Assembly: GCA_030622395.1 (NCBI GenBank)
Contig: JAUXGF010000037.1
Span: forward strand, 1 to 11,226
Direction: 5' to 3'
From: Calditrichaceae bacterium
GTDB lineage: Bacteria > Calditrichota > Calditrichia > Calditrichales > Calditrichaceae
DNA length: 11,226 nt
Shown here: positions 1 through 11,226 of the stretch, in pieces
Numbering within the stretch: position 1 is the first letter of the stretch
How the letters are laid out: each line of letters begins with the position of its first letter
Notes under the pieces: model-generated
What the model was told of the DNA's origin: nothing
Database searches by the model: none
Seen by the model: only the letters and a program-made list of their open reading frames with translations
Translations under genes and position numbers: made by a program

Positions 1-2261
1 AGTGGGTGCGGCAGGTGGTGCACGGCAAAATTACTCAGGATGAAATTGACATCGACGCCTCGGATGAATTGGGTGAAATTGCCCAGGCTTTCAATGAGAT
101 GACGGAGAAATTCCGCGAAGCACAAGTTGGTTTGATTGAGCAGCAAAAGCTTCAAAAAGAACTGCAGGTGGCTCAGGAAATTCAGCAGATGCTTTTGCCC
201 AGTGATTTTCCAAAAGTCGAAGGTTATGAAATTGCCTCTTACTACGAAGCGGCTAAAGAAGTGGGCGGCGATCTATTTGACTTTGTCGAAGTAGACGAAG
301 ATACGATCGGTATTTGTGTGGCGGACGTTTCAGGAAAAGGCGTTCCGGGATCATTAATTATGACCATGATTCGTACCGCCTTACGTTTGGAATCACGCGG
401 AAATAAAAATCCCGCCGATGTGTTGGCAAGGGTTAACCGTTTTGTCGTCGATGATATGAGACGCGGTATGTTTGTAACTATGTTCTATATCATCCTGGAT
501 TCAAGGAATCGAATTATCCACTATGCCAGCGCCGGTCATAATCCGATGATGCTTTACCGGGGATCGACTAAACAAACTTATTATTTAAATCCGTCCGGCT
601 TCCCTGTAGGTATCCAACTGCCTGACGTTGAACTTTTTGCCAGAAAGATCGAGACAGACTCCATTCGTCTGCAAGAGGATGATATTTTAGTGCTTTACAC
701 TGACGGTATTACCGAGGCAATGAATGCAAACCGCGAGCTTTACAGGGAAGAACGGTTTCTAAATTCAATTCGCAGCAATGCCCATTTGGATGTGGGTGAG
801 TTCATTAAAAGCATAAATGTAGAGTTGAAAAACTTTACCGGCGGCGCTCTTCAAAATGACGATATAACTTTTGTATCTATTAAAGAAAAATTAATGCACG
901 GCGACGTTATTTATAGAGTTCAAGAACAATTGAAAGAGTTGATTGCAGGCGGGACACCGGTTAAAAAGGCGCTTGAGCAGTTGAGAGTTTCACCCCATTA
1001 CTATTATAAATATAAAGATATCATTGATAGAAAAGGGATGGGCGCTTTAAAGAAATTTCTAAAAGGACAGGATTATATAGAAAAGAAACATATCTCTATC
1101 GAAGTTAAAACAAAGATTTTTGATATTATTCGTAAACATCCCGACTATGGCGCTAAACGCATTGCCAACGAACTGAAGACAGAAGAGTATGGATCTATAA
1201 AAATTGACTCGGGACGATTGTATAATGAATTAGTAAATTTGAGATTAAACACTCAGGAATTAAGAGAACGGTTTATTGAAAAAGGCGGTAAAAAGCGCCT
1301 CAAACAACCGGGTACGCCCTTGCTCACCCTGGACGGAAATGTTATTTTGGATTTTGAGTCCTCGGAGAAAGAAATTAAAAAACGCGGCAGCGCTGAATTT
1401 GAAAGCCGTTTAAAACCGATCAGTACACGAGAACCCGATAGTAAAAAAGCAATCATACGTCAAACCACTGTAGCTGCGGGCACAGAGATTAAAAGTGAGA
1501 CAGAAGTAAAAAAGGCTCCGCCAACAATTATTCATAAACAGGCAAAGCCGCTCCAGGCTGCAGCAGAGGTTCGTGAAACCAAACCGCCTGAAAAAGAAGA
1601 CAAAACAGAGATCAGTAAAAAAACCGCCCCTGTAAAAGAAAAACCGATCGAACAAAAAATACTTAAAAAAGAAGAGGCGAAACCAGTAAAAGAAGAATTG
1701 GAACTTGTACAGCCCAAAACAGCTTTTTCCAAAGAAGAAGTATTAGATCAGGTTTCAATTAAAATTGATGAAAATAAATTAGACAAGTTGTATAAATTAT
1801 TGGATGATGATCTTAAAGCGCTTGAATTATTAGAGAAAGACGTTGAATTTGATTCTGATTTGAAAGAAAATGTAAAAAAAATTAATTTAATACTGAAAAT
1901 TATCCTAACTCATCCGATACTAAAAGAACTGACAGATATTAAACAGATAATTAGTCAGATACATCAGGCGATGACGTTCATTAATGAAAATTTTGAACAA
2001 TTAGATAAGCGGTTAATTCTTTTAAAAGTTAAACAATTGTTGAAATATCTGAAAAAAGACCATAAATTAAGTAAATATAGTATAATAATTGAAGCAATCA
2101 ATGAAATTGGATTAGCTCAGCATCATTTAACTGAAAATATATCTGTTAAAAAAGTAAAAGAAACAAATGAGATGGATCGAATCCGGAAAAAATTATTGCA
2201 AAAGAAAATAATTACCAGAAAATCTCTGGTAGAATCATTAACAAGGGATGAAGCAAAATAG
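1..2261 (+). CDS. HAMP-PP2C (RsbU/SpoIIE-type) serine phosphatase with HTH-like C-terminal extension, 5' partial
   Basis: Partial at the left edge. The frame is open to base 3, and the GTG at 6 lies inside a HAMP domain, so the real start and any membrane sensor are outside. Numbering from that GTG, residues 1-40 are the end of HAMP (DELGEIAQAFNEM, 20-32) and 41-65 a short coiled linker. Residues 66-293 are a PP2C/SpoIIE phosphatase with the metal-binding acidic motifs intact: GGDLFDF (87-93), ADVSGKGVPGS (106-116), AGHNP (176-180), YTDGITEA (231-238) and QNDDITF (283-289). It should therefore be active, probably dephosphorylating a STAS protein such as its downstream neighbour. About 455 unusual residues follow: an HTH-like segment (298-355), a second HTH-like segment (366-425) matching one in the STAS neighbour, a K/E/P-rich linker (about 430-575) and a helical, Leu/Ile/Lys-rich domain (about 575-751). 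The phosphatase call is firm; the role of the extension is inferred. Confidence 0.93.
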   Translation, partial: WVRQVVHGKITQDEIDIDASDELGEIAQAFNEMTEKFREAQVGLIEQQKLQKELQVAQEIQQMLLPSDFPKVEGYEIASYYEAAKEVGGDLFDFVEVDEDTIGICVADVSGKGVPGSLIMTMIRTALRLESRGNKNPADVLARVNRFVVDDMRRGMFVTMFYIILDSRNRIIHYASAGHNPMMLYRGSTKQTYYLNPSGFPVGIQLPDVELFARKIETDSIRLQEDDILVLYTDGITEAMNANRELYREERFLNSIRSNAHLDVGEFIKSINVELKNFTGGALQNDDITFVSIKEKLMHGDVIYRVQEQLKELIAGGTPVKKALEQLRVSPHYYYKYKDIIDRKGMGALKKFLKGQDYIEKKHISIEVKTKIFDIIRKHPDYGAKRIANELKTEEYGSIKIDSGRLYNELVNLRLNTQELRERFIEKGGKKRLKQPGTPLLTLDGNVILDFESSEKEIKKRGSAEFESRLKPISTREPDSKKAIIRQTTVAAGTEIKSETEVKKAPPTIIHKQAKPLQAAAEVRETKPPEKEDKTEISKKTAPVKEKPIEQKILKKEEAKPVKEELELVQPKTAFSKEEVLDQVSIKIDENKLDKLYKLLDDDLKALELLEKDVEFDSDLKENVKKINLILKIILTHPILKELTDIKQIISQIHQAMTFINENFEQLDKRLILLKVKQLLKYLKKDHKLSKYSIIIEAINEIGLAQHHLTENISVKKVKETNEMDRIRKKLLQKKIITRKSLVESLTRDEAK
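897..1280 (+). other. Transposase-like tandem HTH region in the phosphatase extension
   Basis: Residues 298-425 of the phosphatase read as two consecutive helix-turn-helix units. The first (about 298-355) contains LIAGGTPVKKALEQLRVSP, then YYYKYKDIIDRKGMGALKKF. This follows the HTH_28/29-type pattern 'G.s..eaa..lgvs..tvy.w...y...G..gL'. The second (366-425) contains IIRKHPDYGAKRIANEL and then LYNELVNLRLN, the HTH_21/HTH_32-type pattern found ahead of the integrase core in IS3 and IS481 transposases. No DDE catalytic core follows, so this is a fused domain and not a transposase. The family assignment is by eye only. Confidence 0.55.
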
Positions 2262-2308
2262 CGCTTAACCAGTCAAATGCAGTTGAATTCAAATTAAATC
2301 CCTTTATT

Positions 2309-2315
2309 AAGGAGG
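2309..2315 (+). promoter_or_regulatory. Strong Shine-Dalgarno for the STAS gene
   Basis: AAGGAGG lies 5 nt before the ATG at 2321 and fixes that start. It is the best ribosome binding site in the window. This suggests the STAS protein is translated more efficiently than its upstream neighbour, as expected if the antagonist must outnumber the phosphatase; that last point is inference. Confidence 0.85.
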
Positions 2316-2320
2316 AATGA

Positions 2321-3019
2321 ATGGAAGGTATTCAGGTCTCAACCGAAATAGCCGGCAGCCGTAATCATATATCAATTATTAAGGTTGGCGGATATATTGA
2401 CACAACTACATCTTCTGAGTTAGAAAGGGCGCTTGATTCCTTATTAAAGCAAGGTCGTTTTTTCATAATCGTAGATTTAGGAAATGTTGACTATATAAGC
2501 AGCGCCGGCTGGGGTATTTTTATCAGTGAGATAAAATCCATACGGGAAAACGGCGGTGATTTAAAATTGGTGCGTATGGTGCCCGACGTCTATGAAATTT
2601 TTGAATTACTCGAATTTCATCATATTCTTGACGTTTATGATACGGTGGATGAGGCTATTAATAAATTTGAAATGCTCGAAGCCGCGGGGAAACCGGTTGC
2701 CAAGGAGATAACGTTGCCGCAAGCGGAAGCGGAACCCGCTCAAACGGAAGCTCAGCAATCGGAAGTTAAAACCGAAGAAGACGTTGCCGTTGCTGAAGAG
2801 GCGCCCGAAGAAATAAATCCGGCCTCTTTGAGCTTACAGGAAAAAATTAAAATGATCGTTAAAGAAAATCCTACTTACGGCGCTTTAAAAATAAAACGGG
2901 AACTTAATATGATAAAATATGGTTTTACTAGAATAGGCTGGGTGAAAGTGCGCGCCGAATTAAAAAGATTAAAATTAAACAACACCGCGCGTAGATATAA
3001 ATTTGCAACTTCTTCATAA
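2321..3019 (+). CDS. STAS-domain anti-sigma-factor antagonist with C-terminal HTH-like domain
   Basis: Residues 6-117 are a STAS domain of the SpoIIAA/RsbV type. The phosphoacceptor loop reads VDLGNVDYISSAGWGIF (51-67). Ser61 aligns with the serine phosphorylated in SpoIIAA, and the preceding Asp of the usual D-S-S/T-G motif is Ser60, a common variant. An acidic Ala/Glu/Pro linker (about 120-168) leads to a C-terminal domain (172-228) containing NPTYGALKIKREL and VRAELKRLKLN. This domain aligns without gaps to residues 370-423 of the upstream phosphatase, with about 20 identities in 54 positions by hand count. Ordinary STAS antagonists are about 100-120 residues and end after the STAS fold; this one is 232. 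The gene lies 59 nt after the phosphatase, its likely partner. The STAS call is firm. A DNA- or protein-binding role for the tail is inferred. Confidence 0.93.
   Translation: MEGIQVSTEIAGSRNHISIIKVGGYIDTTTSSELERALDSLLKQGRFFIIVDLGNVDYISSAGWGIFISEIKSIRENGGDLKLVRMVPDVYEIFELLEFHHILDVYDTVDEAINKFEMLEAAGKPVAKEITLPQAEAEPAQTEAQQSEVKTEEDVAVAEEAPEEINPASLSLQEKIKMIVKENPTYGALKIKRELNMIKYGFTRIGWVKVRAELKRLKLNNTARRYKFATSS
2834..3004 (+). other. Second copy of the shared HTH-like domain, in the STAS protein
   Basis: This covers residues 172-228 of the STAS protein. Positions shared with the phosphatase copy include the K-I...I start, P-x-YGA, I-x-x-EL, YG, EL, L-x-LN and a closing R and F. The pattern is that of a winged or homeodomain-like HTH of the transposase-associated type. 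The tail is rich in Lys/Arg (RRYKF near the end), compatible with nucleic-acid binding but not proof of it. Confidence 0.55.
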
Positions 3020-3033
3020 AAGGACGATTTAAG

Positions 3034-3534
3034 ATGCATTTAGTCATGGATATTGTGCTTATTTCAATAATAATGTTCTCTGTTTTTTCCAATTTTTATG
3101 GTTTGCCGGGCAATTCCATACTTGCTTTGAGCAGTCTTGTTTATGGTTTGACCACTGGTTTTGAATCTTTTTCATTTTCATTTATATTAACGCTTTTTGG
3201 AATAGTCGTTGTGTTAGAGTTACTTGAATTTTTGTTAATTTATTTTACGGCTAAAAAATACGGCTCTTCTAAGTGGGGTATAAGCGGCGCTATTATCGGG
3301 GGAATTGTCGGTGCTATAAGCGGAGCTTTTGTGACGCCTATTATGGGAGCCATTATCGGATCGATCTCCGGGGTTTTTCTTGGCGCGTTCCTTTTGGAGT
3401 TTATCAACACTACTAACGTTAAAGATAGTTTTTTTAGCGGGCTAGGCGCATTTTTGGGTAAATTAGGCGGACTTTCCATTAAGGTGATTGGCGGTGTAAC
3501 AATGGCTGTTATGGTAGCCTCAAGAATAATTTAA
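3034..3534 (+). CDS. DUF456 family integral membrane protein
   Basis: This is a 166-residue, very hydrophobic protein. It shows the DUF456 pattern: an N-terminal membrane segment ending in GLPG (23-26), a second pair of hydrophobic segments (about 28-40 and 48-72), the polar turn AKKYGSSKWG (73-82), a Gly-rich membrane stretch with small-residue spacing (83-122), Glu122 in LLEF, and a final Gly-rich segment (about 136-163). The length is normal for the family, whose function is unknown. The gene starts 14 nt after the STAS stop, with AAAGGA just upstream of the ATG; an in-frame ATG at 3046 is an alternative start. It is probably co-transcribed with the phosphatase and STAS genes and is the last gene before the terminator at 3567. 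Whether it takes part in the signalling pathway is unknown. Confidence 0.85.
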   Translation: MHLVMDIVLISIIMFSVFSNFYGLPGNSILALSSLVYGLTTGFESFSFSFILTLFGIVVVLELLEFLLIYFTAKKYGSSKWGISGAIIGGIVGAISGAFVTPIMGAIIGSISGVFLGAFLLEFINTTNVKDSFFSGLGAFLGKLGGLSIKVIGGVTMAVMVASRII

Positions 3535-3566
3535 TTTGTTATTTTAACATAAATGGTTTAATTTTT

Positions 3567-3600
3567 CCCGAAGTGATTTTTCGCTTCGGGATTTTTTTTA
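3567..3600 (+). terminator. Rho-independent terminator after the DUF456 gene
   Basis: A 9-bp stem with one G-U pair, CCCGAAGTG (3567-3575) pairing with CGCTTCGGG (3582-3590), closes a 6-nt loop. It is followed at once by a T-rich run (3591-3600). It lies 32 nt after the DUF456 stop and marks the end of the left operon. Confidence 0.9.
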
Positions 3601-3668
3601 TAGATGAAATGTGCAATACATCTTTGTTTAGTGTGGGGTTGTTTTGGGTGTATATTGGGAATAAAGAA

Positions 3669-3791
3669 AACCCACCCTTGCCTGCATCCCGATACTTCGG
3701 GGTAACCCCTCCCAAGAGGGGCATTGCTGATTCCACCCGTGAGTAAGTTATTACATTCTATCATTAGAAAAATTAGGGGGGGGTTAAAAAA
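3669..3791 (-). repeat. Hairpin-rich short interspersed repeat, copy A
   Basis: Most of the 262-nt gap between the terminated DUF456 operon and the DUF4159 gene is a non-coding element. It contains a CCCGA/TCGGG hairpin (3688-3692 with 3697-3701) and a CCCCTC/GAGGGG hairpin with a CCAA loop (3706-3711 with 3716-3721). Bases 3683-3708 are identical, in inverted orientation, to 8144-8169 of copy B. The right end (G8 tract then TTAAAAAA, 3776-3791), read as its complement, matches the left end of copy B at 13 of 16 positions by hand count. This supports the same element in reverse. The inner half differs from copy B. Exact boundaries, especially on the left, are uncertain. Confidence 0.7.
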
Positions 3792-3796
3792 TTTAA

Positions 3797-4489
3797 ATGC
3801 ATAAGCTCATCAAAACTGATCTTAATAAATTCACTAAATCAACAATATCTTTCATAATTATAATTTTAATGTTTTCTTTTAATCATTTATCCGCTCAACC
3901 GGTTATCCCTGTGCGCATTCAATACAGCGGCGGCGGCGATTGGTACGGTAATAAAACAACCTGGCGGAATATTTTAAGTAAAGCGCGGGATGAATTATCC
4001 GTCGACGCCGGGGAGCGTGAAGCAGCTCATCGTATTTTAGACGCTGAATTTAAACAATACCCGATAGCTTATATTTCCGGACACGGAAATATTGTTTTTT
4101 CCGATCTGGAGGCGCAGGCTCTGCGGCGCTATCTTATTGAAGGCGGCTTTTTATTTGCAGACGATGATTATGGAATGGACGCCTCTTTCCGCCGCGAAAT
4201 GAAAAAAGTCTTCCCTGAATTGAATTTTGTTGAACTGCCTTTTTCGCATCTTGTTTATCATATTTTCTATCATTTTGACCGGGGACTTCCTAAGGTGCAT
4301 GAACATGCCGGCGGCGCGCCAAAGGGTTTGGGATTATTATACGAAGGCAGACTAGTCTGTTTTTACAGTTTTAATACCGATATCAGCGACGGCTGTGAAG
4401 ACGCTGAAATTCATAAAGACGATCCGCAAAAAAGGGAACAGGCATTAAGAATGGCGTTGAACATATTTTTATTTGCATTGTTAAATTAA
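3797..4489 (+). CDS. Exported DUF4159 domain protein
   Basis: A basic N-terminus and hydrophobic stretch (about 15-31) ending in LSAQ form a signal peptide, probably cut after Ala33, so the protein should be periplasmic. The rest is DUF4159: IQYSGGGDWYG (41-51), YISGHGNIVFSD (92-103), LIEGGFLFADDDYG (113-126), FP.LNFVELPFSHLVYHIFYHF (139-160) and GRLVCFYSFNTDISDG (184-199). The fold of this family resembles ThuA/glutamine-amidotransferase-like proteins, and its biochemical role is not established. The start at 3797 has no good Shine-Dalgarno; a later ATG (codon 25) would spoil the signal peptide, so 3797 is preferred. The stop is 4 nt before the DUF4175 gene, a pairing common in Bacteroidota-type genomes, where the two are often near MoxR/DUF58/Bat genes. 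Those are not present here. Confidence 0.87.
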   Translation: MHKLIKTDLNKFTKSTISFIIIILMFSFNHLSAQPVIPVRIQYSGGGDWYGNKTTWRNILSKARDELSVDAGEREAAHRILDAEFKQYPIAYISGHGNIVFSDLEAQALRRYLIEGGFLFADDDYGMDASFRREMKKVFPELNFVELPFSHLVYHIFYHFDRGLPKVHEHAGGAPKGLGLLYEGRLVCFYSFNTDISDGCEDAEIHKDDPQKREQALRMALNIFLFALLN

Positions 4490-4493
4490 TCTC

Positions 4494-7400
4494 ATGAGCA
4501 GCGAAGAAAAAAAATTACTTTCCAATATTTACCGGTTCGGTAAAAGAAAATTATGGTATGAATTATTAGGGAAGATTTCCTGCCTGTCGCTGATAATATC
4601 GGCATTGTGGCTTAGCGCCGCTCTTGCCGACAATCTCTTTTATTTTTCGGAACTAACACGCTGGGGATTATGGTTTATTGGCGTCGGCGTTCTGCTATAT
4701 TTGTTATACCTCTTTTTTTTAATTCCGCTAAAAAATTTAACCGCCTTAAAGCCAAATTCCAATTTAACCGCCGCTGCAAGTCTATTAGGCAGATTTTATC
4801 CTGAAATTAAAGATTCCCTGGTTAATACATATCATCTGATCACCCGTGAGTTTGATGAAAATATCTCGGATGAATTACGTAAAGCGGGGATTAAAACAAA
4901 CATAGATAAATACGGCAACCACAATTTTAAAACACAGTTAAAGTTAAAACAATACCTGCCGGGAATTAAATTAGCCCTCCCTGTATTTATCAGCGCAATA
5001 GTTTTGTTAAGTTTTAAATTTGACGATATGTCTCATTCAACCTTACGTTTATTAAATCCTTCAAATGAATATTTAAGACTGCCTGCTTATCAATTTGAAG
5101 TAGAGCCCGGTAATATTAATATTATTAAAGGCGAATCAATTAATTTTGAAGCTCGCTATAACGGGCCTCCTTTACACTCCTGTCAGTTAATTATAAAAGA
5201 TGTTAACAGCGCCGGAAGCATGCGTATTTTGCCGATGAACCGAATTAGGGGAAGCTATACAATCAACGTTAAGGATATTAAAAAGCCGGTGGATTATCAA
5301 ATTAACGGGCTGCCGCTGAACAATAAACAACTACAGGATCATATCCGGTCAAAGAAATATCATATTGATATACGCATCCCTCCAATGATCAAAAACTTAG
5401 ACGTGACCTTAATTCCGCCGCGTTATTCGGGCTTGCAAAAGCAGCGTTTGGATAGAAATTTAGGCGATATTGCTGCTTTAGCGGGAACGCGGGCGAAGGT
5501 AAAATTAGAAACAAACAAAATGATCGAATCTGCTTCGCTTATCTTTGCATGCGGGGGGAAGATTGATCTGGACATACGAGGCAAACGTATCAGCGGTAAT
5601 TTTTCAATCAATAAAAATGATAGTTATAAAATTCTGCTTCAGGATACATCCGGTTTGGGGAATTTAAATCCGATTGATTATCAAATAGCGCTTTTGCCGG
5701 ACAATCCGTCTTTTGTTGAAATTAGCGAACCCGGGCAGGATGTTGAAACTCAGCTTGATGGCAGCCTGCAACTAAAAATTGAAGCTGGCGACGATTTTGG
5801 TTTAAGTGTTGTTAATTTATTTTATCAATATTTATACAGCTCTGAATCGGCTGCGGATACTACCTGGCGGCAAGCCTCGCTGAAACTGAAAAATAAATCA
5901 TCAAAACGGCAGGAGTTATATTATTTATGGAATTTTGACCTGCTCCCTTTAGCGTTTGACGATGGTATTAAATACTATGCCGAAGCTAAAGATAATAATT
6001 ATATCAGCGGGCCCGGCATTGGGAAAAGTAAAATATTCTATATCCGCTTTCCTTCTTTAGATGAGATTTTCGATTCGTTTACAGAAAACGAAGAGCAGGA
6101 ATCTGAAAAGTTAGAAGATGTGCGCCGGGAATCTGAAAACCTGAAAAAAAAGCTGGAAGAGATTAACCGCGAATTTAAACGGGCAAACGAAGTCGACTGG
6201 GAGACAAAACAACAGCTTGAAAAGACTTTAGAGCAACAAAAAGAATTGCAGGATAAAGTTAAAGAGATTCAGAAAAATCTTGAGGAGTTAATAGAAAAAC
6301 TGGATGCAAATAATTTGATAAGCGAAGAAATCCTTGAAAAATACATGCAGCTTCAGGAGCTCTTTAAAGAGATAGCTACCCCGGAACTTATGCAGGCTAT
6401 GCAGAATTTGCAAAAGGCTTTAGATAAATCCGACCCTAAACAAGTTCGGAATGCGCTGGAACAATTTAAATTAAACCAGGAGGCGTTTAAAAAAAATATT
6501 GAACGTACAATTGAACTATTAAAGCAGGTACAGCTTGAACAAAAACTGGATCAATTAGCGCAAAAGGCAAAAAGCCTTGCCGAACAACAGGAAAAAATCA
6601 GTAATACGCTTAACAATGATAAAACACCCGGCGACAAAGAATACAATCAATTAAAAAAACAACAAGCGCAGCAAAAAGAAAAATTAGAACAGCTTCAGAA
6701 TGACCTGAAAAAATTTTTGCAGGAGCCGCAGCTAACAAAATTCCCGCAGGCAAATCAGACGCTTGATTCTACGCAAAGCCGGATGAGCGATCCCACTTTG
6801 AGTGAACAAATGCAGAACATGCAGCAAAATCTTAGTTCCCAACAGAAAAAAAATGCAGCCGATTGTTCACAGAAACTTCAAAAGAAATTTGATGCAATCA
6901 AAAATTCGCTTATGCAGGCTCAGCAGCAGCTTCAAGGTCAACATAAAGCACAGATCAAAAAGAAGATGAACGCGGCTGCGCAAAAAATGCTGCAACTTTC
7001 TCATTCTCAGGAAAAGCTGCAGAAGCAAACGCAAAATGCTTCGGCTTTTAGCGGCGATTTAAAAGATATAGCCAACGGTCAGGGACAGGTAAAGGATAAT
7101 TTTCAAAAATTACTTTCGGAGTTGATGCAGCTTGCAAGGGAAACATTCTTTATCAGTCCTAAAATAAATAAATCGCTGGGCAAGGCTCAAAGCAATATGC
7201 AGCAAAGTCTTAATAATTTATCGGAACGCAATAAAGGGGCGGCGGCGTTGAGCCAGGAGCGGGCTTTAGCGGCTTTGAATGAAAGCGTTATGCAGATGCG
7301 CCGGTCAATGTCGCAAATGGAACAGTCGCAATCGGGTACTGGTTTTGAGCAATTTATGGAGCAGCTAAAGCAAATGGCTGGAAGCCAGGGACAGATAAAC

Positions 7401-7898
7401 GAAGAAACAATGGGTTTGCTTCAGGGTCAGGGTAACCAGGGGAAGCTTTCATTAATGCAGCAACAGGCAATGCGGCGTCTGGCAGCCGAGCAGGGAGCTT
7501 TGCGGGAAGCTTTGGAGAGTATGAACGAAAAGATGGGCGACCGCAGAGATATGTTAGGCAGATTGGGAGAGTTGTCCGGCAAGATGGAAGAAGTGGTGCA
7601 GGATCTTTTAAAACAAAATATCGACCGGAAAACAATTGAGCGGCAGCGGCAGATTTTATCCCGTATGCTTGACGCTCAGAAATCCATTCAGGAACGGGAA
7701 TTTTCCAAAAAGCGAAAGGCGGAAAGAGCAAAAAAATACCGCATAAAAGATCCGGGCAAGCTTGGGGATTTGGTTGACGCGGAGAAGAAAGCCATACAAG
7801 ACGCCTTGCGCCGGGCTTTGAATGAAGGCTACAACAGGGATTATCAGCAATTGATAGAGGCTTATTTTAAGTTATTGCTTTTAAAACAGAACGAATGA
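4494..7898 (+). CDS. DUF4175-type large membrane protein with long Gln-rich coiled coil
   Basis: 1134 residues. Three probable membrane helices lie near 28-50, 57-78 and 158-174. They are followed by a large, probably periplasmic, beta-rich region (about 180-520) with family-like motifs: IPPRYSG (307-313), ALAGTRAKVKL (328-338), GDDFGLSVVNLFYQY (432-446) and YYAEAKDNNYISGPG (494-508), then FPSLDEIF (519-526). From about 530 to 1010 the chain is almost wholly predicted coiled coil, rich in Gln, Lys, Glu, Met and Asn, with many QQ/QK runs. The C-terminal part (about 1020-1134) is charged and helical. There is no recognisable enzyme motif. The start is 4 nt after the DUF4159 stop with no Shine-Dalgarno, so translation is probably coupled. 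The pair may work together at the cell envelope; that is inferred from conserved neighbourhood, not from sequence. Confidence 0.85.
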   Translation: MSSEEKKLLSNIYRFGKRKLWYELLGKISCLSLIISALWLSAALADNLFYFSELTRWGLWFIGVGVLLYLLYLFFLIPLKNLTALKPNSNLTAAASLLGRFYPEIKDSLVNTYHLITREFDENISDELRKAGIKTNIDKYGNHNFKTQLKLKQYLPGIKLALPVFISAIVLLSFKFDDMSHSTLRLLNPSNEYLRLPAYQFEVEPGNINIIKGESINFEARYNGPPLHSCQLIIKDVNSAGSMRILPMNRIRGSYTINVKDIKKPVDYQINGLPLNNKQLQDHIRSKKYHIDIRIPPMIKNLDVTLIPPRYSGLQKQRLDRNLGDIAALAGTRAKVKLETNKMIESASLIFACGGKIDLDIRGKRISGNFSINKNDSYKILLQDTSGLGNLNPIDYQIALLPDNPSFVEISEPGQDVETQLDGSLQLKIEAGDDFGLSVVNLFYQYLYSSESAADTTWRQASLKLKNKSSKRQELYYLWNFDLLPLAFDDGIKYYAEAKDNNYISGPGIGKSKIFYIRFPSLDEIFDSFTENEEQESEKLEDVRRESENLKKKLEEINREFKRANEVDWETKQQLEKTLEQQKELQDKVKEIQKNLEELIEKLDANNLISEEILEKYMQLQELFKEIATPELMQAMQNLQKALDKSDPKQVRNALEQFKLNQEAFKKNIERTIELLKQVQLEQKLDQLAQKAKSLAEQQEKISNTLNNDKTPGDKEYNQLKKQQAQQKEKLEQLQNDLKKFLQEPQLTKFPQANQTLDSTQSRMSDPTLSEQMQNMQQNLSSQQKKNAADCSQKLQKKFDAIKNSLMQAQQQLQGQHKAQIKKKMNAAAQKMLQLSHSQEKLQKQTQNASAFSGDLKDIANGQGQVKDNFQKLLSELMQLARETFFISPKINKSLGKAQSNMQQSLNNLSERNKGAAALSQERALAALNESVMQMRRSMSQMEQSQSGTGFEQFMEQLKQMAGSQGQINEETMGLLQGQGNQGKLSLMQQQAMRRLAAEQGALREALESMNEKMGDRRDMLGRLGELSGKMEEVVQDLLKQNIDRKTIERQRQILSRMLDAQKSIQEREFSKKRKAERAKKYRIKDPGKLGDLVDAEKKAIQDALRRALNEGYNRDYQQLIEAYFKLLLLKQNE

Positions 7899-8032
7899 CT
7901 TTTGGAATATGCTCATTTAGTCATCTGTATGAATTTAGTTTTTGATAATGTCAAAAGTTATATAAAAAAATGAAAAATAATCTATCAGATAACTGTTATC
8001 TTGAATGGTGTAAGACAAATTTCACATGGGAG

Positions 8033-8188
8033 TTTTTTTACCCATCCCCCGGTCCCGAAAAATCGGGGTGAAAAAATCTGTATGGCTTGTATTATTCATA
8101 AATATGTAAATATCAGTATTCCCTTCCCTATTGAATTAGGGAAGGGTTACCCCGAAGTATCGGGATGCAAGCAGGGATGGGTAAAAAA
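8033..8188 (+). repeat. MITE-like hairpin element with perfect terminal inverted repeats, copy B
   Basis: The 452-nt gap between the DUF4175 stop and the minus-strand gene is mostly this element. Its ends are a perfect 15-bp inverted repeat, TTTTTTACCCATCCC (8034-8048) against its complement (8174-8188). Inside are three GC-rich hairpins in AT-rich surroundings: CCCGA/TCGGG at 8054-8067, a perfect 10-bp stem CCCTTCCCTA/TAGGGAAGGG (8121-8130 with 8137-8146), and CCCGA/TCGGG at 8151-8164. Bases 8144-8169 repeat the core of copy A inverted. No open reading frame of real character lies inside. A frame here and one in copy A both translate to a GYPEVSGC(K/R)QGW string, which only reflects the shared DNA. 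No target-site duplication is obvious. Confidence 0.78.
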
Positions 8189-8263
8189 TGCGCAGGTATC
8201 ATTTATTGTTCATTTCATTATTCTGATATAATATGCCAATAAAGGGTTTTGAAAATAAGGTTT

Positions 8264-8377
8264 ATGGGCCATAAAGAACAAAGACAAGAATCTAGGAGAA
8301 GAGGAATTGTTGAATTATTAGAAAAACACAAATTAAATAATTGGTGTTTTTTAGTTTGTTGTTTTAGAATTATTTAA
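8264..8377 (+). other. Possible small ORF or gene remnant (37 codons)
   Basis: An ATG at 8264, with AAGG three nucleotides upstream, opens a 37-codon frame. It begins MGHKEQRQESRRRGIVELL and ends in a Cys/Phe-rich tail, with its last 27 nt overlapping the end of the minus-strand gene at 8351. The first 26 residues look like a plausible charged helical protein N-terminus and the tail does not, so a truncated gene remnant is as likely as a real small protein. I do not recognise it. Confidence 0.15.
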
Positions 8378-8387
8378 TAATTCAACA
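8308..8387. repeat. 13-bp inverted repeat around the 3' end of the minus-strand gene
   Basis: TGTTGAATTATTA-type arms (8308-8320 with 8375-8387) are perfect complements. A second, inner pair (AAAAACAC 8322-8329 with GTGTTTTT 8344-8351) lies between them. The outer right arm is inside the coding end of the minus-strand gene and the inner pair straddles its stop. The nested stem could be a weak AT-rich terminator for that gene, but there is no GC-rich stem with a T tract, so this is tentative. Confidence 0.4.
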
Positions 8388-9163
8388 GCCTGGTTAAATA
8401 AATAATTTTTAATTTTAATAATATCAGTATATGTATTCCCCATCTCTTCGGTTTTCTGTACGATTATTAAAATTTCGTAGGGAACCCATATATTATTAAC
8501 TAAACTATTTTTTAATTGCACCTCAAAGCCGCTTTTAATTTCATCATTTTTAATATTTTGCACTACCCAGCCGCTGCACAGCCATTTTGTTTTTACCGTT
8601 TTGAACTTGGGATAAGTTACAACCCTCGTGCTCGTGTCGGGATTTAGTGTTTCTATTTTTAAACATAATCCGTTAAGCCCAAAAGTATAATTAAATTGTG
8701 TCCTATTATCCTGATCGCCAGCTTCAAATGATATCTCTATAATCTGATCATTATGTTTAATAAGATAATCGTCATTTATATTACCGTACAACCCGCTGAT
8801 ATAAAATCGCTGCAAGTCAATAAAGACGCCCTTTAACTGCCCTTTCAACCCATTAATAATATCCTGATATTCCTTAAATTTCCCCTCTTTGATTGTTGGT
8901 ACGCCCTGCTGTGATAAATACAATTTACCCGGAGCAAACCATATTAATTGAAAGGGGAAAATTTCTTTATTATTCCATTGTTCCTCTGCAAATGATTCCA
9001 TACCCGAATTTGTTATTAATGAAGTGAAGTTTTTCGCGCCCGTGCCGTTAAGCGTATAATAAGATTCTTTAATCTTCTTAAAAAATTCCTGTTCATTAAA
9101 ATCCTTTTCCTGGCAAAAGGCATTTGTAATTAATATTAGACTTATTAAAATAATCCGTATCAT
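8351..9163 (-). CDS. Exported protein of unknown function, possibly LolA-like
   Basis: 270 residues with a short N-terminal signal: MIRIILISLILITNAFC, then Gln18. Phe just before the Cys argues against a lipobox, so signal peptidase I cleavage near 17/18 and a periplasmic or outer-membrane location are more likely. The mature part begins FFKKIKESYYTLNG. It then shows alternating beta-like strands (IWFAPGKLYLS 74-84; IIEISFEAG 141-149; FNYTFGLNGLCLKIETL 157-173; VPYEILIIVQKT 227-238), compatible with a LolA/outer-membrane lipoprotein-sorting fold. This resemblance is weak and by eye. An AGGA 6 nt before the ATG supports the start. The gene is convergent with the DUF4175 operon and divergent from mtnA, and codon use is AT-rich like its neighbours. 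Confidence 0.75.
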   Translation of the reverse strand: MIRIILISLILITNAFCQEKDFNEQEFFKKIKESYYTLNGTGAKNFTSLITNSGMESFAEEQWNNKEIFPFQLIWFAPGKLYLSQQGVPTIKEGKFKEYQDIINGLKGQLKGVFIDLQRFYISGLYGNINDDYLIKHNDQIIEISFEAGDQDNRTQFNYTFGLNGLCLKIETLNPDTSTRVVTYPKFKTVKTKWLCSGWVVQNIKNDEIKSGFEVQLKNSLVNNIWVPYEILIIVQKTEEMGNTYTDIIKIKNYLFNQAVELLNNSKTTN

Positions 9164-9280
9164 TATTTATCCTATTTTTATTATATTTACTTGGTTTTAT
9201 CTAACAAAACTATTCTCTTTTTCTTGCGAATTTAATATATTTTTTGTAGTTTTTCAATTTATGTTAAAATCTTTAATAAT
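9164..9280. promoter_or_regulatory. AT-rich divergent intergenic region
   Basis: This 117-nt region separates the two divergent start codons and must hold the promoters of both the minus-strand exported protein gene and mtnA, if each has its own. It is extremely AT-rich, with several TATATT/TTAAAAT-like words, including TAAAAT at 9265-9270. No convincing -35/-10 pair or Bacteroidota TAnnTTTG box stands out, no riboswitch-like structure is visible, and there is no Shine-Dalgarno before mtnA. Confidence 0.4.
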
Positions 9281-10318
9281 ATGAATATTGAATCAATAGT
9301 TTTTGAAAATAATACTTTAAGAATAATAAATCAAAAAGAATTACCGCAAACTTTTAAATATATAACATTATCAACATTAAGCAACGTAATTGACGCCATT
9401 AAATCATTAAAAGTTCGCGGCGCGCCCGCCATAGGCATTTTAGCGGCTTATGGCATGTACAAACATGCGGAATTCTTATATAGTAAAAATCAATTGAATA
9501 TCAATAATCTAACTCAAGCTGCCGACGCCCTCAAAAGCAGCCGCCCCACAGCGGTAAATTTAGGATGGGCGGTCGATAAAATGATGAAAGCTTTTTTAAA
9601 ATATTCGGGATCTCCAATTGATGATGTTCTACTGTCAAAACTAAAAGAAACCGCGGTTAATATTCATTTAAATGATAAGAATACTTGCGCATCTATCGGC
9701 AAGTTCGGGGCGCAATTAATTAAAGACAGATCAAATATATTGACCCATTGCAACGCCGGTATTTTAGCCACTGGCGGCAGGGGAACGGCTTTGTCTGTTA
9801 TCTATGAAGCAAAAAAGCAGGGGAAAAATATTCACGTTTATGTTGACGAAACAAGGCCGGTCGGGCAGGGAGCGCGGCTTACATATTGGGAATTAACGAA
9901 GAACAATATCCCTGCAACTTTGATAGCGGATAATATGGCAGCTAGTCTAATGCAGTTAAATAAAATAGACTCTGTAATTGTAGGCGCGGATAGAATTGCA
10001 AAAAACGGCGACACGGCTAATAAAATCGGCACATATTCCTTAGCTGTTTTAGCTTACTATCATCAAATACCATTTTATGTCGCGGCTCCGCTTAGTACGT
10101 TTGATTTTTCAATTGAAAGCGGCGGTGAAATACCGATTGAATTTAGAAATAAAGAAGAGATTTTAGCTTTTTGGAACATTGATAATAAAAATGATTATAA
10201 TGTTTACAATCCCGCTTTTGATGTTACGCCAAATCATTTAATATCGGGAATTATCACAGAAAAGGGTATAATAAAAAATCCTGTTGAATTAAACCTTAAA
10301 CAATTTTATACAAACTAA
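9281..10318 (+). CDS. mtnA: S-methyl-5-thioribose-1-phosphate isomerase
   Basis: Converts 5-methylthioribose-1-phosphate to 5-methylthioribulose-1-phosphate in the cytosolic methionine salvage pathway. It is a full-length 345-residue member of the MtnA/eIF2B-alpha-like family. Motifs seen are KVRGAPAIG (44-52), RPTAVNLGWA (88-97), THCNAGILATGGRGTAL (155-171), VDETRPVGQGARLTYWEL (188-205), ADNMAAS (216-222), GADRIAKNGDTANKIGT (235-251) and PFYVAAP (264-270). Cys157 and Asp237 occupy the positions of the catalytic Cys and Asp known from Bacillus MtnA. One small departure is GGEIPIEFRN (281-290), where most members read IPIEER. No other salvage gene (mtnP, mtnK, mtnB) is in view. The TPR lipoprotein follows by 18 nt, probably in the same transcript. 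The start fits the family's N-terminus, despite lacking a Shine-Dalgarno. Confidence 0.97.
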   Translation: MNIESIVFENNTLRIINQKELPQTFKYITLSTLSNVIDAIKSLKVRGAPAIGILAAYGMYKHAEFLYSKNQLNINNLTQAADALKSSRPTAVNLGWAVDKMMKAFLKYSGSPIDDVLLSKLKETAVNIHLNDKNTCASIGKFGAQLIKDRSNILTHCNAGILATGGRGTALSVIYEAKKQGKNIHVYVDETRPVGQGARLTYWELTKNNIPATLIADNMAASLMQLNKIDSVIVGADRIAKNGDTANKIGTYSLAVLAYYHQIPFYVAAPLSTFDFSIESGGEIPIEFRNKEEILAFWNIDNKNDYNVYNPAFDVTPNHLISGIITEKGIIKNPVELNLKQFYTN

Positions 10319-10322
10319 ACTT

Positions 10323-10328
10323 AAGGAG
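10323..10328 (+). promoter_or_regulatory. Shine-Dalgarno for the TPR lipoprotein
   Basis: AAGGAG lies 8 nt before the ATG at 10337, which fixes the start. With the 18-nt gap to mtnA it supports co-transcription. Confidence 0.8.
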
Positions 10329-10336
10329 TTTTAAAG

Positions 10337-11226
10337 ATGAAAAGACTTATGTTAACGTTATCCGCCGCGCTGTTAATTATTTCGATGTTAACTTCGTGCC
10401 GGCCTCCGGAATTGGAAGGAGCCTTTGTTGATTTTAACGCCGGACGCTTCGACAAGGCATTAGAATTAGCGCTCGACGCAACACAAAAATATCCGAATAA
10501 TTCGGAAGCCTGGTGTTTATTGGGGAAACTTCAAGGCAAAAAAGACCTGATTAAAGAAATGATGGAATCGTTTGAAAAATCTCTTGCTATTGACTCTCAA
10601 TTTGCAAAGGATATTGAACAAGAAAAGAATTATTATTTTCAAACCTCTTTTAATAACGGGGCAAAAAATTACAACGCCTATAAAAAATCGGAAGATAAAA
10701 AATCTGAAAAAGCCGTTAAAACTTTAAATGAAGCTATTAAGAATTTTAGTAATGCAGATATCATTAAGAAAGATTTCAAAACTATCAATTTATTAGCCAC
10801 TTGTTATTTTTCTTTAGATGATAAAGAGAATTCCTTGGAAAATTATTTGAAATTAACTAAATCATTTCCTGATAGCGCCGCTTCCTGGTTTTCATTGGGA
10901 AATTATTATTTTTCCGAAAAGGAATATAATAAATCCGCTGAAAGCATTAATAAGGCGCTTGAAATTGATCCTAAAAACATAGAAGCTATTTCATTGCTAT
11001 CTCAAATCTACGATATTTTAAAAGACTTCGATAATGCCGTTAGTACATACAAAAAAGCGATTGAATTAAACCCTGAAGAAAAAGCTTTTCATTTTAACTT
11101 AGGTCTTTTATATTTTCACGCCAGCAACGACAGTATAGATGAAAATCTTAAAAAAACTTATTATGATGAAGCATTAATCTGTTTCGACAAATCAATTGCT
11201 CTTGATCCAACATTAAAAGACGGCTA
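10337..11226 (+). CDS. TPR-repeat lipoprotein, 3' partial
   Basis: The frame is open from the ATG at 10337 to the window end: 296 codons plus the bases TA, which could begin Tyr or a stop codon, so the true end is unseen. Residues 1-20 are a lipoprotein signal (MKRLMLTLSAALLIISMLTS) with lipobox LTSC, making Cys21 the lipidated residue. The protein should be membrane-anchored and face the periplasm. The rest is tetratricopeptide repeats. The clearest are near 26-59 (GAFVDFNAGRFDKALELA), 183-216 (SWFSLGNYYFSEKEYNKSAE, then ALEIDPKN), 217-249 (LLSQIYDILKDFDNAVSTY, then AIELNPEE) and 252-292 (FNLGLLYFHAS, then CFDKSIALDPT). A Lys-rich segment (about 100-135) separates the first repeats from the rest. 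TPRs mediate protein contacts and the partner is unknown. Its function need not relate to mtnA. Confidence 0.88.
   Translation, partial: MKRLMLTLSAALLIISMLTSCRPPELEGAFVDFNAGRFDKALELALDATQKYPNNSEAWCLLGKLQGKKDLIKEMMESFEKSLAIDSQFAKDIEQEKNYYFQTSFNNGAKNYNAYKKSEDKKSEKAVKTLNEAIKNFSNADIIKKDFKTINLLATCYFSLDDKENSLENYLKLTKSFPDSAASWFSLGNYYFSEKEYNKSAESINKALEIDPKNIEAISLLSQIYDILKDFDNAVSTYKKAIELNPEEKAFHFNLGLLYFHASNDSIDENLKKTYYDEALICFDKSIALDPTLKDG

Follow-up and report, generated by a model that had tools for sequence, protein, structure and literature searches.

A transposase-type helix-turn-helix tail shared by a PP2C phosphatase and its STAS neighbour in Calditrichota and other bacterial groups

Why would a PP2C phosphatase and the STAS protein encoded beside it both carry a helix-turn-helix (HTH) domain of the kind found in transposases? 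The question is raised by the first 3 kb of contig JAUXGF010000037.1 (positions 1 to 11,226, hereafter the window), which belongs to the 3.05-Mb draft genome of a Calditrichaceae bacterium (GCA_030622395.1). The first gene in the window (3..2261; like all features given below, on the forward strand) is a 752-aa frame for a sensor kinase/phosphatase, the 5' end of which is cut by the start of the contig; it retains a partial HAMP domain, a PP2C/SpoIIE phosphatase domain (297..884; Pfam PF07228, E 4e-49), two successive HTHs (HTHa, 903..1076, and HTHb, 1083..1280), a linker and a variable C-terminal region. The second gene (2321..3019; identified from its open reading frame (ORF), Pfam and homologs) follows a Shine-Dalgarno motif, AAGGAGG, read off the sequence at 2309..2315, and encodes a 232-aa protein, STAS1, in which a STAS domain (2360..2656; PF01740, E 3e-20) is connected by a variable linker (2657..2821) to a strongly basic C-terminal HTH tail (2822..3016). 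The initial annotation of this DNA claimed that the two proteins share a tail, and this we confirm; its interpretation, that the tails either tether the enzyme to its substrate or allow both to bind the same DNA or RNA, is supported in part.

Likeness of the two tails and their transposase character

Several comparisons relate HTHb of the phosphatase to the tail of STAS1. BLASTP gives an ungapped alignment of phosphatase residues 365-424 with STAS residues 169-228 (21/60 identical, E 2e-7), and a hand count over residues 370-423 and 175-228 (in the numbering of a 751-aa ORF) reproduces the 20 identities in 54 positions first reported. A Smith-Waterman alignment of the tails scores 91, a value reached by none of 5,000 shuffles (mean 30.5, standard deviation 5.1, maximum 66), while hhalign, applied to profiles of 17 orthologs per side taken from 30 STAS tails and 29 phosphatase tails, finds the tails to be related over 58 columns (probability 98.9%, E 2e-17). 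Separate AlphaFold2 models, with per-residue confidence (pLDDT) of 97-98 in STAS residues 171-230 and 91-97 in phosphatase tail residues 71-120, have the same helix layout: helices at 172-182, 188-195, 207-216 and 222-231 of the STAS protein correspond to those at 66-78, 84-91, 103-112 and 118-126 of the phosphatase tail, with 104 residues between the starts in each of the last three pairs and nearly as many in the first. HTH domains are abundant, and the two window sequences, taken one at a time, match Pfam HTH models below curated cut-offs only, a point that weighs against our reading and would suit chance or a generic HTH similarity; however, chance is ruled out by the shuffles, hhalign and the helix register, and since the tail is also conserved in several phyla we consider either explanation highly improbable.

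The extent of the tail differs between the two proteins. HTHb is common to both, as was first described, yet the phosphatase tail is longer than had been recognised, with HTHa preceding HTHb (AlphaFold2 helices 2-15, 20-26 and 31-44; HTH_28, HTH_23, HTH_29 or HTH_Tnp_1 matched in 15-19 of 22 orthologs). Complete phosphatase orthologs have the order RsbW-like kinase, HAMP, PP2C and double HTH, and the STAS protein possesses the second HTH only. HATPase_c_2, missing from the truncated window copy, lies at the N-terminus of the complete orthologs scanned, such as a 1,201-aa protein with HATPase_c_2, HAMP and SpoIIE by Pfam (genome G001) and one of 1,079 aa (locus L113). The same combination can be read from existing precomputed Pfam assignments, in which HATPase_c_2, SpoIIE and HTH_23/HTH_28 occur together in 27/27 proteins.

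The domain had been likened to the HTH_21/HTH_32 class of IS3 and IS481 transposases, and this comparison proves correct, given the Pfam matches of ortholog tails and a match to a transposase. At E<=0.1, the tails of 22 orthologous phosphatases match HTH_32 (20), HTH_23 (19), HTH_28 (17), HTH_Tnp_1 (16) and HTH_29 (15), HTH_21 is matched by 14 of 17 STAS tails (best 7.8e-6), and one Zixibacteria phosphatase (L182) exceeds Pfam's own cut-offs for HTH_28, HTH_23, HTH_29 and HTH_Tnp_1. The double-HTH profile also matches a 331-aa, rve-bearing transposase of the IS481 type in genome G014 (positions 7-132, E 4e-11). The best structural matches to the double HTH are the N-terminal HTH pair of IS481/IS3-type transposases and the Tc1/Pax paired domains, which likewise consist of two tri-helical HTHs in the same order. 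Sequence searches of the PDB gave only weak matches (1v71 at 0.14 and Sleeping Beauty 5unk at 0.2 for set A4; for set A6, 3o60 at 0.005 over positions 15-79 as the best). Unlike IS481/IS3 transposases, the phosphatase and STAS proteins scanned have no detected DDE/rve domain. We infer that descent ran from transposase to signalling domain rather than the reverse.

Conservation and spread of the tailed proteins

In Calditrichota the STAS protein is matched in 40/40 genomes, at the level of STAS1 (E <=7e-59, in some genomes as two pieces) in 39, with a paralogue-level match only in the remaining genome (G010, 72% complete). Among the best 120 of 2,422 STAS1 homologs, every one whose name includes a taxon is from Calditrichota, and the commonest residue at a position has a mean frequency of 0.98 in the near-invariant STAS domain, 0.53 in the linker, where pLDDT is mostly low, and 0.72 in the tail. 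The motif SSAGWG (approximately 2498-2515, within the STAS domain) is presumably the phosphoacceptor region, and S60 and S61 are invariant over 77 sequences. The phosphatase and STAS1 genes are adjacent in 29/29 Calditrichota loci read and are followed in all of these by genes for a DUF4159 protein (3797..4489 in the window) and a DUF4175 protein (4494..7898), with a DUF456 membrane protein (3034..3534) between in 15.

The STAS-tail profile matches three times in 27 of the 40 Calditrichota genomes, four times in 2 (through an extra fragment in G020 and a marginal match, E 0.009, in G023), twice in 9 and once in 2. Judged by ORF size and position, the three belong to STAS1, to the phosphatase and to another STAS protein, STAS2, which lies at the edge of contig C28 in the window genome; the STAS2 sequences inspected end in R-Y/F-R-F/Y-Y-R-S. 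The window genome has five matches to SpoIIE and eight to STAS; one PP2C and two STAS proteins bear the tail, which consequently marks a subset. In one genome (G009, L058:4513-7770) the phosphatase ORF is broken within the tail by a single reported stop, which may be real or an assembly error.

Beyond Calditrichota, the system spans KSB1, Zixibacteria and, in part, Krumholzibacteriota. A double-HTH profile scan of 84,980 species genomes confirmed 83 stretches, of which 80 were kept; all 63 that were examined (L127-L189) lie within ORFs similar to the window phosphatase, some ended by contig edges, and they derive from these four groups and a few metagenome-assembled genomes labelled otherwise. 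The STAS-tail profile is found in 61/61 KSB1 genomes (sampled at >=85% completeness), with three matches in 44, more in 13 and fewer in 4. In Zixibacteria, classified by ORF size and profile thresholds with eight tail-less phosphatase C-termini read directly, the tail lies on an ORF of <=350 aa in 81/97 genomes and on a phosphatase-sized ORF in 20/97 (17 full-length, 2 partial, plus G207); both tails occur in 20 genomes, a smaller-ORF tail (STAS or out-of-frame) without a detected phosphatase tail in 61, and neither in 16. Co-occurrence of the two tails is supported, and in Zixibacteria all 20 genomes with a tailed phosphatase also have a smaller tailed ORF. In Krumholzibacteriota a phosphatase-sized ORF carries the tail in 28/69 genomes (one with internal stops, one partial), and four of these were read as loci. 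In the four genomes searched with the STAS-tail profile, it matches the phosphatase only. The one protein scanned (L187) combines kinase, HAMP and PP2C with a double HTH that is followed by three STAS domains. The phosphatases of L186-L189 are 1,423-1,493 aa long, and close to those in L186, L187 and L189 are two STAS genes in which no tail was detected.

A candidate partner switch and its rivals

The domains in question are those of the RsbU/RsbV/RsbW (SpoIIE/SpoIIAA/SpoIIAB) switches, which share PP2C, STAS and HATPase_c_2, and the closest solved STAS folds include RsbV and SpoIIAA. In contrast to those switches, kinase and phosphatase are here fused in one sensor, and a transposase-type HTH is found on both sides. 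The usual endpoint of a partner switch is a sigma factor; none was identified here, where no sigma partner was sought. Kinase and phosphatase are also combined in SypE of Vibrio fischeri, a bifunctional serine enzyme and response regulator whose substrate, the STAS protein SypA, is linked to a polysaccharide locus; the unphosphorylated STAS protein is the active form, and SypA is proposed to act on a partner other than SypE (PMC4517449, PMC8256260). The phosphatases scanned differ from SypE in having no receiver domain (HAMP is present in most, and sCache in L182 and L187), and SypA is a STAS domain only, whereas here the putative substrate is STAS plus HTH. Among the titles listed by literature searches on STAS/PP2C/HTH switches and on slippage, none describes such a system.

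We tentatively propose, with a confidence just short of even, a partner switch in which a presumed membrane sensor, composed of an RsbW-like kinase, a sensor region, HAMP and a PP2C phosphatase, would set the phosphorylation of at least two STAS proteins bearing transposase-type HTHs. The kinase would phosphorylate, and the PP2C domain dephosphorylate, the serine loop of the STAS domain, as family knowledge of SypE/SypA suggests; phosphorylation would then gate a small basic tail that probably binds nucleic acid, most likely DNA, and that would serve as the output controlling envelope and exopolysaccharide genes. The double HTH of the phosphatase probably binds sites of a similar type, or else the STAS complex, and would so hold enzyme and substrate together. 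If true, a transposase DNA-binding domain would have been domesticated for phospho-signalling and retained in several phyla, and in little-studied groups a classic protein switch would have acquired a probable DNA-binding output of its own, frequently next to genes for capsule or slime. The output of SypA-like switches at polysaccharide genes is not known (PMC4517449), and a STAS protein with a probable DNA-binding domain would constitute a direct one.

Tailed STAS paralogues lie near exopolysaccharide-export genes. A gene for a Wza-like or Wzc-like protein lies close to STAS2 in 12/13 Calditrichota loci, that of the window genome included (in L052, which lacks one, part of the sequence is masked), and in 11/11 KSB1 loci; the STAS2 neighbours in genome G001 comprise sugar transferase, polysaccharide export, GNVR/Wzz and FemAB proteins by Pfam. 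The position in a polysaccharide locus that is known for SypA is true of STAS2 but not of the window's STAS1, near which an export gene was found in 0/29 Calditrichota and 0/17 KSB1 loci within the flanks fetched. In some KSB1 genomes (L202-L208) the tail is also present on a third and longer STAS protein (STAS3), with a long, mostly acidic linker (386-754 aa in six loci, with L207 ending at a contig edge); an export-type gene is near in 6/7. In Zixibacteria, an export gene is near the STAS-tail gene in 13/19 unnamed and 8/9 named loci.

We also record several features of the DNA around these genes. About 40-260 bases 5' of STAS2, a sigma-54-like promoter (TGGCAY-N5-TTGC) is present in 8/11 KSB1 loci (L209-L219), with variants by eye in two more, and in 0/11 Calditrichota; the Vibrio regulator SypG is reportedly sigma-54-dependent as well. 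Also 5' of STAS2 in KSB1 is an element with the core GAAACAATGTT, found with <=2 mismatches in 7/11 loci and with <=1 mismatch in 5, with 9 matches within 1 mismatch in all 127,002 bp. Neither this element nor the promoter need be tied to the tail. A search for operators 5' of STAS2 in 22 loci gave 63 inverted repeats against 27 expected from base-order shuffles, many of them overlapping and A/T-rich; no inverted repeat common to distant genomes was seen, and the Calditrichota upstream regions have only A/T-rich 8-mers in common. In Zixibacteria, a gene for a GGDEF protein (L230:4098-5732, with Pfam run on L230 only, and similar genes in L220-L231) separates the STAS-tail gene from polysaccharide export genes, a hint of cyclic di-GMP input.

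What, then, might the tails do? We favour a nucleic-acid-binding role because of their likely origin, their basic charge, their persistence where the phosphatase has no tail and their possible attachment by recoding, discussed below. Of the options first raised, binding of DNA or RNA is the one that better suits the fold matches and the STAS tails, which are strongly basic in 76/77 sequences. The alternative first raised, a homotypic tether between phosphatase and substrate, fares less well. In its general form, pairing between HTHb domains, or a common scaffold, would dock the cognate enzyme and substrates and keep them apart from other PP2C and STAS proteins. This would agree with the restriction of the tail in the window genome to two STAS proteins and one PP2C among its eight STAS and five SpoIIE matches, and with the weakly basic charge of the phosphatase HTHs; it retains a fair share of our belief because of the co-occurrence in Zixibacteria, where all 20 genomes with a phosphatase tail also have one on a STAS-sized or smaller ORF, and the Krumholzibacteriota fusion of three STAS domains after the double HTH. 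However, two basic domains would not obviously attract each other by charge, and an obligatory pairing is weakened by the 61/97 Zixibacteria that keep a STAS or out-of-frame tail without a detected phosphatase tail and by the four Krumholzibacteriota genomes in which the phosphatase carries the only tail found. As each tail can occur without the other, tail-tail pairing is not the sole role, and we consider docking unlikely, if still a serious competitor.

A further explanation dispenses with nucleic acid altogether: the basic tail may fold onto the acidic STAS domain, or bind a secretion or envelope component, and be released by phosphorylation. The charges are indeed opposite (-9.2 for the STAS domain and +8.7 for the tail), the STAS2 and STAS3 genes adjoin export machinery, and SypA is proposed to act on a partner other than its own kinase/phosphatase (PMC4517449, PMC8256260). 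Yet in the STAS1 model the linker has a pLDDT of 50-57 (residues 131-160) and the predicted template-modelling score (pTM) is 0.57, and thus no packing of tail against STAS domain is predicted with confidence; moreover, the tail retains transposase-like sequence, two STAS3 tails reading STVYRWLR and another STVYRFLR. We regard this explanation as more doubtful than docking.

A poly-A junction in Zixibacteria, and further neighbouring genes

Some Zixibacteria form a group with a tail-less phosphatase and a STAS frame that ends at about 130 aa, beyond which a different frame encodes the tail. We defined a junction set by ORF size (23 genomes with a tail ORF of 100-121 aa, 9 with a STAS-tail ORF of 225-228 aa, plus L237) and left out L242, in which no STAS frame was found; the set comprises L220-L231, L240, L241, L243-L259 and L237, that is, 22 out-of-frame loci, 9 in-frame loci and L237. 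A run of 9-11 A stands at the junction of STAS and tail in 32/32 loci (A10 in 25, A9 in 6, A11 in 1). In the out-of-frame genes, the STAS frame stops 2-6 codons past the run and the tail lies in the -1 frame in 21 and in the +1 frame in one (L247); in the in-frame genes the run is A10 in 9/9, and each of the two remaining frames meets a stop within 2-14 codons. Elsewhere in the 22 out-of-frame loci there are 8 A/T runs of >=8 in 116,208 bp, and among the 77 STAS-tail genes of set A5 a run of A8 occurs in 2 and A10 only in L237. The window gene has no A run at its STAS/tail junction.

These runs suggest possible recoding into two isoforms, for which transcriptional slippage is the mechanism favoured, as helper signals for ribosomal frameshifting were not found: 30/32 junctions have no Shine-Dalgarno-like site, and no structure is evident 3' of the run (mean z -0.14 against mononucleotide shuffles, with 1/32 below -2). 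Under-calling of the homopolymer is unlikely, since A11 occurs in none of the 9 in-frame relatives, nor in L237, while 21/22 out-of-frame tails are in the -1 frame. A standalone tail gene is doubtful as well: the tail lies out of frame behind the run, and although a start is possible in 6 of 12 loci checked, the other 6 have no ATG, GTG or TTG before the HTH. A protein search with one out-of-frame tail retrieved only 5 small proteins. The run may also be subject to phase variation, but its length is 10 in 25/32 loci whichever the frame.

In many bacterial genomes, selection against A/T runs can be seen at a length of nine bases; Thermus dnaX has nine As, and one dnaX cluster has nine genes with ten As (PMC1088944, PMC3711429). 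Slippage of the dnaX type and in insertion sequences likewise involves 9-10 A at which a frame is lost or restored to give a short and a long product (same sources), whereas the Zixibacteria run would decide the presence of an HTH tail on a STAS protein. If true, this would be cellular recoding of the dnaX kind in a regulator, and this group of Zixibacteria would produce both STAS and STAS-HTH. The fullest form of our proposal is possible, although we hold it with distinctly less confidence than the switch itself: a transposase HTH of the paired type would be a phosphorylation-gated, DNA-binding STAS output that bypasses the anti-sigma step, and in one lineage slippage at the conserved A10 run would determine how much STAS is made relative to STAS-HTH, with both isoforms produced whichever frame is encoded.

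Some minor observations concern the wider setting of these genes. No Rfam family was detected in the window. In several Zixibacteria and Krumholzibacteriota loci, a gene for a ParA/MinD-type ATPase lies between the phosphatase and STAS genes (L182:6818-7558, L187:8190-9002, L189:8278-9027, L235:537-1328; called by Pfam on L182 and by eye in the others). A UPF0164/PorV-like outer-membrane protein with TPR repeats, which may be part of the sensor system, is encoded 5' of the phosphatase (L182:2151-3983, L127:1823-3925, L100:14205-16121), having been called by Pfam on L182 and by eye in eight loci and L100.

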